Assembly (NCBI RefSeq): GCF_902829255.1 | Contig: NZ_CADEPK010000009.1 | Span: 1-64,000, forward strand | Origin: Metabacillus niabensis | GTDB taxonomy: Bacteria; Bacillota; Bacilli; Bacillales; Bacillaceae | Reading direction: 5' to 3' | Length of the DNA stretch: 64,000 nt | In this document: positions 2,731 through 11,870 of the stretch, piece by piece | Numbering within the stretch: position 1 is the stretch's first letter | How the letters are laid out: every line of letters begins with the position of its first letter | Program-made: the position numbers and the translations under genes | Notes under the pieces: model-generated | Database searches by the model: none | Seen by the model: only the letters and a program-made list of their open reading frames with translations | What the model was told of the DNA's origin: nothing

Positions 2731-5642
2731 TTATAAGCCACACTTTAATTGGGCACCACAACTAGTACAAGTATTACATCCGCCTAAATCCTCGACTGTA
2801 CCTTCTCGACAAACCGGACATGTATTCCCAACCTCATTACCAATAGTAACATCAGTGGAACGCAGGTCATTGATTGTATCTACTAATACAACCTTCCCTT
2901 TTTCCTTATTGTCAACATCTTCGACATCGTCAAATGTATTTTCTTCTGCCTTTAATGTTAATACTTGTGTATCTCGGCTACCGTCAACATAAACGGTACC
3001 ACCTTTAGCTCCACCTTTGTATAATCTCTCATATACTTTTTCAACTTGGTCAACAGTATATCCTTTAGGAGCATTTACTGTCTTGCTAATCGAGCTATCA
3101 ATCCAACGCTGAATTACACATTGTACATCGGCATGCGCTTCAGGAGCTAATTCCATCGCAGATACGAAAAATGATGGTAAGTTATTTGGATCCGCTTCTG
3201 GATGGCGATCTAAATATTCTTGTACGATATCTGCTTTTACTTCAATAAATTTCCCTAATCTACCGCTTCTGAAATATGAGAATGAAAAATATGGCTCTAA
3301 TCCTGTTGACACGCCAACCATAGTTCCTGTAGAACCTGTTGGAGCAACTGTTAACAAATGAGAGTTACGAATACCATATTGTTTAACACCTTCACGAATA
3401 TCTTCAGGCATTTTACTCATAAATCCAGTTTGTGTAAATGCTTCACGAAGACGTGTTGTCTCCCCTTCTTCTTCACCGACTAAGAAAGGAAAACTACCTT
3501 TTTCTTTCGCTAATTCTATAGAAGCACGATAAGCAGTTGTCGCGATTGTTTCAAACACTTTATCAACTAACTCATTACCTTTTTCAGAACCATATTCTGT
3601 TTCACAGTAAATAAGTAGGTCATGTAACCCCATTACACCTAAACCTACACGACGTTCACCAAGGGCTTGGTGTTTGTTTTCAGGCAGAAAATAAGGTGTT
3701 GCATCAATGACGTTATCTTGCATGCGAACTCCGATTTCAACTGTTTTTCTTAATTTTTCAAAATCAACAGTCTTTGTTTCCTTATTCGCCATTTCAGCTA
3801 AATTTACCGCCGCTAAATTACAAACAGAGTATGGAGCAAGTGGTTGTTCACCACATGGATTCGTTGCTACAACCTGTTGACCATATGCTTTTGCATTTGT
3901 CATATCATTCGCATTATCAATAAAGAAAATTCCTGGCTCAGCAGAATACGTTGCACATATGTTGATTAGATTCCACAAGTCTCTTGCTCTAATTTTACGA
4001 TACGTACGAACTTTATATCCTTGCTTTTCCCATTCACGAACATCTCCGACTTTATGCCAATTTTCATTGTAGGCTTTCATATTCTCTTCATCGTAGCTTT
4101 CTACGTCTGGGAAACGTAGTTCATACTCAGCATCCTTTTCAACAGCATCCATAAAATCTTTTGTTAAAGTAACTGAAATATTAGCACCCGTTAAAAACTC
4201 TGGATTATGAACACTATATGTTCCACCCGTACGAAGCTTTAATTCCGCTTCTTTAATGATTTTTTCACTGAATCCACCAGTTCCAGGTATTTGTTTGTAA
4301 TTAACAATCCCCTGATACATATCGATTTCTTGTTGAGTTAACGGTGTGAATTTTAGTTTATCTTGTGCATATTTCTTAATTGCTTCATCTTTTGTATTTT
4401 CAATTAAATAGCGCAAAATTCTAGGGTTTTGCATTTTAGATATTATAAATTCGATGATATCAGGATGCCAATCTGCAAGCATAATCATCTGTGCACCACG
4501 CAATTTGTTACTCCTCATTTGTTAGAGGGGCTAGGTCATTTCTGCCTAACTCTCATGCTTTCACATGAGTTCGGACTATATCATCAAGGAATATTCATTC
4601 CCTGTCTCGTACCTCAAAAGAAGTTCTTCTTTTGATCTACTTATACCTTATTGTAAAAACGTAGGTACTTTCGATAGTCTCTGAACGTTCATCTTAGTTT
4701 CCTAAGATGCTTCGCTGCTGATTGCCCATTATTTATATTCATCATTTTCAAACCTTCACGGTCACTGTTGCCAGTCACGTTGTGGTTGATGAATCTTTAG
4801 GGTGTTCCAGCAATTCACGAGATTTTATTCCCGCCGTGTGGATTTAAGATTTAACGGGAACCACCTTGCTCAACAAGATGTGTTAATTTAGCGATATCAT
4901 CTAACCAAGATACCGAACCAGATGATTTACCATTTACACCACGTGCAAGTGTATTTCGAGGACGCAATGTTGAACCATTTGTTCCAACTCCACCACCACG
5001 ACTCATAATCTCCATTACTTGTTTCCGATGCTCAGAAATTCCTTCACGGGAGTCTTTTACAAATGGCATAACATAACAGTTAAAATACGTTACATCAGTG
5101 CCTGCCCCAGCTCCATATAAGACACGTCCTGCTGGGATAAAATTCAAATTCACTAGCTCTTGATAAAACTTTTCAAACCATTCTTTACGCTTTGCTTCCG
5201 TTTTTTCTACCGATGCCAATCCTGTCGCGTTACGTTTTGCAATTTGTTCGTAATAGATTTCAAGTGGTTTTTCAATGACGTCTAAAGAGCGTTTCACAAT
5301 TCCTGTTTCAACTTCCTCAGGATTATCTAGTGAGTGGCGATACTCTTCTTCAACTAGCACACTTGCCGTTTTCGTTTGCCAATCAATTTCTCTAACATAT
5401 CCAAGTCCACGTGCAGGAAACTTAGGATCCTCTTTTATTGTTAAAACAACAAAATCCCCTTCTGATAATGTAATCTTCTCTGTATCCTTAAACGTATAAC
5501 GATCAAGCATAACCAGCCTTGATACACCTTTATGGGTCAACTTCATATCATCTGTTATAGGATGGACTTGTGGAAATGCAGAAATATCTTTATTTAACTT
5601 TTCTACATTTAGTTCCATCTTTTGCTCTGTAACAACAGTCAT
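2731..5642 (-). CDS. nrdJ: Adenosylcobalamin-dependent (class II) ribonucleotide reductase, split by a group I intron
   Basis: The enzyme reduces ribonucleotides to deoxyribonucleotides using coenzyme B12. The gene is in two exons, 5642-4854 and 4500-2731. Joining them restores the frame across GGSR|RGAQM and gives about 852 residues. Visible motifs are FNCYVMPF in exon 1, NPCGEQPL followed by SVCNLAAVNL in exon 2 (catalytic and redox cysteines), and a Cys-rich redox tail (CPVC, CNTC, SCG). The start at 5642 is chosen for AAGGAG 8 bases upstream; an in-frame Met at 5696 has no such signal. Without splicing, exon 1 meets a TAA immediately after the splice site, so an active enzyme depends on splicing. 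The gene is absent from this position in B. subtilis. Confidence 0.92.
4501..4853 (-). ncRNA. ORF-less group I self-splicing intron in nrdJ
   Basis: The 353-nt insertion reads on the minus strand. The 5' exon ends in U (…TTCCCGT) and the intron ends in G directly before CGTGGTGCACAG, the group I signature. An internal guide GCGGGAA about 15 nt into the intron pairs perfectly with exon TTCCCGT, including the U-G wobble at the splice site (P1). Core elements include GGGCAATCAGCAGCGAAGC, a P7-type pair TTCAGAGACTA / ATAGTCCGA, and a P9 hairpin CTCATG-TGAAAG-CATGAG near the 3' end. No homing-endonuclease frame fits inside, so it is immobile on its own or depends on a nuclease elsewhere. Splice sites are inferred from reading-frame restoration and P1. 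Confidence 0.92.
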
Positions 5643-11639: not shown

Positions 11640-11870
11640 CAAAAAGCTCCCATCCTTATGCCAAAAATCGACATAGGGACGAGAGCTTACCCGCGGTTCC
11701 ACCCTATTTGCTCACCTAATTATAAAGGCAAGCCACTTTCAATTGCTGCTCCAGAACGCCTTTCATTACGAGCCAATCCTTAGCTTTCACCGTCCTAAGG
11801 TCGCTATTAATGGTTATTCGTAACTACTTCTTTCCTTCAACGCAAACTGTTAAATTCTAATTGCATATTA
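11640..11870 (-). promoter_or_regulatory. T-box riboswitch leader of glyQS
   Basis: On the minus strand upstream of glyQ lies the T-box signature AGGGTGGAACCGCGG (11706-11692). It is followed by a terminator whose stem pairs GCTC(T)CGTCC with GGATGGGAGC and ends in TTTTTG. A long structured 5' part, including a CTAAGG/CCTTAG helix, corresponds to stem I. Uncharged tRNA-Gly should stabilise the antiterminator and allow glyQS transcription. I could not assign the glycine specifier triplet with confidence. Confidence 0.92.

Follow-up and report, generated by a model that had tools for sequence, protein, structure and literature searches.

A compact group I intron in nrdJ of Metabacillus niabensis belongs to a lineage that probably occupies neighbouring codon boundaries of the gene in Bacillus relatives

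The class II ribonucleotide reductase (RNR) gene nrdJ of Metabacillus niabensis is interrupted by 353 nucleotides within a stretch of 64,000 nucleotides (contig NZ_CADEPK010000009.1, positions 1 to 64,000; hereafter the window), and the locus raises the question of what this insert is, where it came from and whether the cell depends on its removal. Group I introns have been described in other RNR genes, including nrdB and nrdD of T4-like phages, nrdE of Twort, and nrdE and nrdF of SPbeta and the Bacillus cereus group (PMC3984707, PMC3653736). The database RNRdb holds more than 100 curated group I introns in RNR genes, with no share for nrdJ stated in the part of its description that deals with them (PMC2795772), and a phage survey reports two split nrdJ genes, given as consecutive or overlapping frames (PMC3653736). 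In the literature searched, group I introns in bacterial nrdJ were not described, a result that applies to those sources and not to all literature.

Removal of positions 4853 to 4501, with 4854 joined to 4500, yielded a single open NrdJ frame of 852 amino acids with the junction GGSR/RGAQM, the codon run that the original prediction had described as interrupted; its coordinates for the insert were exact. The spliced protein was a class II (B12-dependent) NrdJ, with a score of 1715.7 bits for NCBIfam NF005991 (cut-off of 854), and it also passed TIGR02504 (602.5 versus a cut-off of 399.95). A cmscan search of the window gave a single match to the Rfam group I model RF00028, at 4887..4552 (70.2 bits versus a gathering score of 50, E = 8.8e-16), and the insert was likewise the sole match in the genome-wide scan (E = 1.6e-17). 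This was the Infernal check that the original prediction had proposed, and together with the restored NrdJ frame it supports the view of the insert as a compact, ORF-less group I intron in a class II nrdJ. A U.G pair at the 5' splice site (U4854.G4834) and a terminal G (G4501) also accord with group I membership, the U and G having served as tie-breakers in site mapping as well. The folding energy of the single sequence (368 nt including 15 exon bases) had a z score of -5.3 versus 100 shuffles. The first intron codon, UAA (4853..4851), is in frame with exon 1; stops are present in all three intron frames, and 353 is not divisible by three.

Several other explanations of the insert were rejected. 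An assembly error is contradicted by inserts at the same site in other records, namely L042/L051 (a MAG), whose core is 98% identical to that of the window intron, and L036/L052 (Metabacillus malikii DSM 29005, an isolate), whose intron measures 373 nt. A pseudogene does not fit with the open exons, the Rfam score and the presence of the same insert elsewhere, and an IStron does not fit with 353 nt lacking an ORF of transposase size.

The original prediction had described an ORF-less intron in a bacterial class II nrdJ as less familiar; a survey of relatives did not sustain the view that such an intron is unusual in this gene. A NrdJ match was present in 36 of the 80 family genomes searched, and nrdJ was in more than one piece in 18 of these 36; exclusion of G054, with its small change, left 17 of 36 with one or more introns. 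Among the matches listed, the 80 loci of named genomes with the closest exon 1 included 34 with inserts, and the nearest named organisms were Metabacillus and unclassified Bacillus. Three close relatives (L048-L050, 94-95% identical) carry nrdJ without an insert. Six intron sites were mapped, after residues 263, 264, 265, 273, 480 and 652, corresponding to nucleotides 789, 792, 795, 819, 1440 and 1956, and all six follow a complete codon. The choice among splits that restore the frame equally well was made by the known group I rule of T before the intron and G at its end; given that this tie-break leans on a known rule, no probability is attached to the whole-codon placement. The 26 loci that were added were sorted by the residues after GGSR, and the acceptor side, read separately, agreed. 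These comparisons mark nrdJ as a hotspot for introns among Bacillus relatives, and the window intron is itself an ordinary representative of a known kind. In L032 (G054), nrdJ is disrupted by the small change near residue 110 and the intron is absent.

Nine loci (L086, L116, L139, L141, L146, L147, L148, L158 and L161) have introns after both residue 263 and residue 273, with a 30-nt exon (RGAQMIMLAD) between them, and Rfam detected both introns in L116 and L139, the two twin-intron loci checked. When ten relatives were checked with Rfam, RF00028 did not reach the gathering score in L041 or L165, and in L063 it did so for the 1956-site intron but not for the 792 intron; the long endonuclease insert presumably accounts for these missing matches.

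Support for the P1 helix came from 27 distinct introns of site 789 (exact copies removed, near copies such as L042 retained), in which 185 of 189 exon/guide pairs form, a number reached by 0 of 2000 shuffles (mean of 169.9). The guide of each intron was taken as the segment pairing best with its own exon, a choice that favours pairing; in the sequences inspected by eye it lay just before the P3 strand. At the seventh pair, which contains the third base of a glycine codon, we observed A-U in 14 introns, G.U in 5, U-A in 2 and C-G in 2, with 4 misses (n = 27). In L147 and L151 the serine codon is AGT rather than TCC, and their guides are altered at the three matching places (exon AGTCGT with guide GCGACT, versus the usual TCCCGT with GCGGGA). 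This compensation between exon and guide across introns supports P1. The Rfam alignment starts in exon 1 (4887) and puts P1 elsewhere; on the pairing just described, we consider that the Rfam P1 is misplaced and that the real P1 is UUCCCGU (4860..4854) with GCGGGAA (4834..4828). This helix, with its U-G pair at the splice site, was part of the original prediction, and it is present at the sequence level, as are the terminal G, P7 and P9 also named there. The P10 assignment is tentative.

For the remainder of the fold we aligned 13 introns of site 789 no longer than 390 nt (the window intron and 12 others), each with 15 exon bases; one row, L151, is misaligned in P1. P1 and P3-P9.2 were written by hand from the window sequence, an origin that alone favours this structure over slid versions. 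Standard pairs occupied 95.0% of 1060 cells, versus 81.1% with shuffled 3' letters and 38-44% with partners slid by 1-3 columns, and both-sided changes were seen in 44 of 82 pairs versus 24.6 in shuffles, mostly in P5a, P6a, P7.2, P8, P9, P9.1 and P9.2. A P3-P9 core of the group I type was found, with P4, P5 and P7 conserved and covariation there almost absent; given that these helices hardly vary, the catalytic core is backed by conservation, not covariation. P7 (4679..4675/4578..4574) is the element that we take to be the guanosine site. Subgroup IA is defined by the presence of P7.1 and P7.2 between P7 and P3', and two stems with covariation lie in this interval of the window intron, as seen in the alignment; the intron is a candidate for this subgroup. 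In three aligned relatives (L086, L041 and L063), the P8 loop is filled by an endonuclease gene, with an open frame that spans P7.2 to P7', P3' included, and has its stop in P7'.

Table 1 Features of the nrdJ locus and elements of the predicted intron fold (window positions)
Feature	Position	Strand	Remarks
nrdJ exon 1	4854..5642	minus	263 aa; ATG at 5642 after AAGGAG
nrdJ exon 2	2731..4500	minus	589 aa plus stop
Group I intron	4501..4853	minus	353 nt, ORF-less; RF00028 70.2 bits; boundaries from NrdJ continuity, the group I rule of U before the intron and G at its end, and P1
Internal guide GCGGGAA, P1 3' side	4828..4834	minus	pairs with exon UUCCCGU 4860..4854; exon/guide compensation over 27 introns
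CACG, possible P10 partner of exon 2 CGUG (4500..4497)	4835..4838	minus	paired by eye; stretch varies in relatives
P3	5' strand 4817..4822, 3' strand 4610..4605	minus	100% of cells paired; both-sided changes in 2/6 pairs
P4	5' strand 4808..4813, 3' strand 4720..4715	minus	5/6 pairs invariant, no covariation evidence
P5	5' strand 4800..4802, 3' strand 4727..4725	minus	invariant
P5a	4794..4787/4744..4737	minus	both-sided changes in 8/8 pairs
P6a hairpin	4690..4709	minus	both-sided changes in 4/8 pairs
P7, expected guanosine site	5' strand 4675..4679, 3' strand 4578..4574	minus	4/5 pairs invariant
P7.1	4667..4663/4648..4644	minus	within 4614..4667
P7.2	4635..4627/4622..4614	minus	outer part 94.7% paired, inner three pairs 48.6%
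P8 stem-loop	4586..4603	minus	first six pairs 96.2% paired, inner one 30.8%
P9	4569..4564/4557..4552	minus	100% paired; both-sided changes in 4/6 pairs
P9.1	4549..4545/4535..4531	minus	100% paired
P9.2	4528..4525/4516..4513	minus	88.5% paired

With this structure, the intron would fold within the nrdJ pre-mRNA and guanosine would attack after U4854, at the U.G pair of P1; exon 1 would next attack after G4501, joining the exons into an mRNA for the 852-residue NrdJ. The 353-nt element very probably self-excises in this way, and ribosomes would be halted before the intron by its first codon, UAA.

At five of the six nrdJ sites, introns generally have such an early in-frame stop. They were counted, like the endonucleases below, in 84 distinct introns, of which related ones are not independent; a search that started from the window intron added to the 789 and 792 samples, so that the per-site counts should not be read as frequencies. 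A stop occupies the very first in-frame codon in 27 of 27 introns at site 789, 5 of 5 at 792 and 10 of 10 at 819, with 0 in the two other frames. A stop falls within four in-frame codons in 15 of 16 introns at 795 and in 17 of 20 at 1440 (5 and 0 in the other frames at each site). At site 1956 this holds for 1 of 6, and all 6 have a stop within 13 codons, with the other frames alike over that length (6 and 5).

Six of the endonuclease proteins were compared with Pfam, and matches above cut-off were obtained for LAGLIDADG_3 in L086 (789) and L041 (792), DUF559 in L031 (795) and HNH in L076 (819); the protein of L069 (1440) had no match and that of L100 (1956) matched no endonuclease family, the two appearing by eye PD-(D/E)XK-like and HNH-like, respectively. 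We then sorted the 84 introns by search with five endonuclease proteins into those with more than 150 aligned amino acids, a shorter match or none, with counts of 8/6/13 at site 789, 2/3/0 at 792, 6/1/9 at 795 (the long ones being five DUF559 and one LAGLIDADG), 3/0/7 at 819, 8/1/11 at 1440 and 3/1/2 at 1956. More than 150 aligned residues does not equal an intact gene, frames being broken in, for example, L145, L040 (795), L043 and L124 (1440), and the shortest matches (26-41 amino acids, as in L152, L166 and L167) may reflect ribozyme sequence that overlaps the gene start rather than decay. Shortened endonuclease sequences, between the long and the ORF-less forms, were seen in L043 (795, 1440), L087 and L124 (1440), and L146, L149 and L153 (789). 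The window intron matches none of the five endonuclease types and has no ORF, and is thus not a mobile intron in the sense of one bearing an endonuclease. It belongs to a lineage resident in nrdJ, in which relatives carry a homing endonuclease of the LAGLIDADG type; past homing is probable, and the gene is missing in this copy. A search for a LAGLIDADG source outside nrdJ gave only remote matches in viral contigs (four loci, at most 38% identity) and eight plasmid records, all below 60%; intron DNA matched two plasmid records. The known phage and bacterial RNR introns are likewise group I ribozymes, some with endonuclease genes (PMC3984707, PMC3653736), but here the host is a chromosomal class II nrdJ with six mapped sites and with endonucleases of the LAGLIDADG, DUF559 and HNH types and one type without a Pfam match.

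The part of the case of most interest to us is the relocation of introns by a single codon. Five distinct 792 introns share the LAGLIDADG type and the core with 789 introns (approximately 82% between the window and L041) and fall among them in the core tree; their guide is GCGACG for exon CGTCGT, and the preceding codon is free to vary. The 792 introns as a single clade were rejected (44.6 log-likelihood units worse, p-AU of 0.007, 0 of 200 trees of a bootstrap that had not settled): L063/L143 group with L147/L151 and L148/L161 (92/88), and L041 and L166/L167 fall elsewhere. A single origin of 792 introns from 789 introns with AGT serine exons, via a GTCGTCGT repeat, was at best partly supported. 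In the endonuclease protein tree, built from 11 rows, a single branch is starred, and a split with the 789 rows on one side was not rejected (p-AU of 0.323). L146 and L163 were left out of the first core tree, their motif not being found, and are present in the tree used for p-AU; L165 is in neither core tree and was placed by identity only. Two introns at site 795 have cores nearer to the 789 lineage. For L154 this is seen in tree and identity, and for L165 in identity and in a LAGLIDADG gene (303 amino acids, 67%); by eye, the first 35 nt of both look like those of the other 795 lineage. Both look chimeric, with the guide segment of one lineage and the core (in L165 also the endonuclease) of the other.

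A simple reading is that one lineage occupies the three successive boundaries through mutation of the guide, perhaps with exchange of guide segments, the endonuclease tree being too weak to confirm it. More broadly, one LAGLIDADG-associated lineage may have relocated repeatedly within nrdJ by one or two codons (after residues 263, 264 and 265), its guide fitting each new exon, while a second lineage with another endonuclease also occupies the third site; by moving in whole codons, introns would retain the early in-frame stop and with it the protection of the ribozyme from ribosomes. We consider the chances of this scenario to be evenly balanced. Fungal rDNA group I introns spread between sites by homing or reverse splicing, and there too introns or endonuclease genes move to other or neighbouring sites with the guide as key (PMC1299323), whereas the present case concerns a protein gene, successive codon boundaries and a shared endonuclease. 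The setting is a useful one, with a single housekeeping gene, introns at six mapped codon boundaries, long, shortened and missing endonucleases, and intron-free sister species as controls. As a natural series it could show how group I introns change target, and it bears on whether selection favours whole-codon insertion with an immediate stop and whether splicing limits B12-dependent dNTP synthesis.

Movement between hosts was examined with the same cores. The window core groups with L042, L036 and L139 (100/97; 98/96 in a second tree), and the nearest relatives of the window intron include one in a host of another family. In a quick tree, the nrdJ of the L139 host was placed with Litchfieldia salsa (SH-aLRT of 98) and away from the Metabacillus group; between L139 and the window, exon 1 is 76.8% identical and the core 91.6%. 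The exon tree used to trace the 789 label was likewise a quick one; it comprised 27 loci with the intron, 46 without and 5 more at 792, and loci whose inserts lie exclusively at other sites were left out. On this tree the label must change 13 times, and starred branches force at least 8 of these changes. Passage of the intron between genera at site 789 is the best explanation. Co-conversion of flanking exons is not claimed; the window and L139 are 88% and 83% identical beside the site and 65-78% further off, yet many pairs show a similar gradient.

The statement in the original prediction that dNTP synthesis depends on splicing was not supported as it stood. The genome contains a second RNR large-subunit match (C366:8275-9819) side by side with a class I small-subunit match (C366:7206-8042), on a separate contig of a 462-contig assembly with an estimated contamination of 1.06%; the pair may be of the nrdA/nrdB or the nrdE/nrdF type. 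A small-subunit match (PF00268) is present in 80 of 80 family genomes, in G020 as fragments only. A cobalamin riboswitch (117.2 bits; L131 3872-4050, minus strand, G000 contig C366) lies upstream of the large-subunit gene. Under the control of such riboswitches, B12 shuts the downstream gene down. B12 would then turn class I off and leave NrdJ in charge, and only in that state would DNA precursors depend on splicing.

The same class I genes lend some plausibility to the idea that splicing has been lost, that nrdJ is broken and that the cell lives on class I RNR. Both exons are open, however, and exon 1 is 84.7% identical in DNA and 94% in protein to the intron-bearing gene of M. malikii, as expected under selection on the protein; moreover, guide and exon match at the synonymous position in 23 of 27 introns and at the other six positions in 27 of 27. 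We regard loss of splicing as very unlikely. An intein or other protein insert deserves mention given that inteins are known in RNR genes including nrdJ (PMC3653736), but a length not divisible by three, stops in every frame, with an immediate one in frame, and the Rfam score refute this idea from the sequence itself, and its probability is negligible.

If the intron were retained as a regulatory switch, coupling NrdJ production to translation, GTP or growth state, this would resemble the regulation proposed for phage T4 RNR introns (PMC11878797), and the prevalence of early in-frame stops is in keeping with it. Two observations speak against such a role, which we judge improbable: the patchy presence of the intron, with the label changes on the exon tree given above, and the coexistence of introns with a long, a short or no endonuclease sequence, a pattern resembling the cycle of a parasite. 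Taking sequence, comparative fold, lineage and frame together, we are highly confident that the insert is a functional group I intron of an nrdJ-resident lineage, which would splice to give the mRNA for the 852-residue NrdJ.

Related cores also occur outside nrdJ. Of the best 30 order-wide matches to the window core, 27 are in nrdJ and 3 outside, two of these beside flagellin frames as judged by eye. Flagellin group I introns of thermophilic Bacillus have been published (PMC3984707), and those of Bacillus relatives have related cores, of the same family and order, in another gene. Among 20 non-nrdJ loci inspected, group I matches lay beside flagellin frames (by eye) in 16 (L002, L004, L010, L012, L015, L017-L020, L022, L023, L025, L027, L028, L160 and L164), with two close matches in several genomes; L003 has an RNR large-subunit-like frame beside its intron match, and L006 a phage-tail-like frame. 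In the best 20 of 319 phage records, introns in Staphylococcus phage MSA6 rec, Listeria phage LPJP1 and crAss-like phage cr118_1 share a similar core stretch (74-77% identity over 43-46% of the intron), and no phage record covers 80% of the window intron; unlike the window intron in nrdJ, the MSA6, LPJP1 and cr118_1 regions have no RNR gene annotated at the match. Elsewhere in the window, a T-box leader (11672-11849, minus strand, 94.4 bits) lies upstream of two frames that by eye resemble a glycyl-tRNA synthetase pair.
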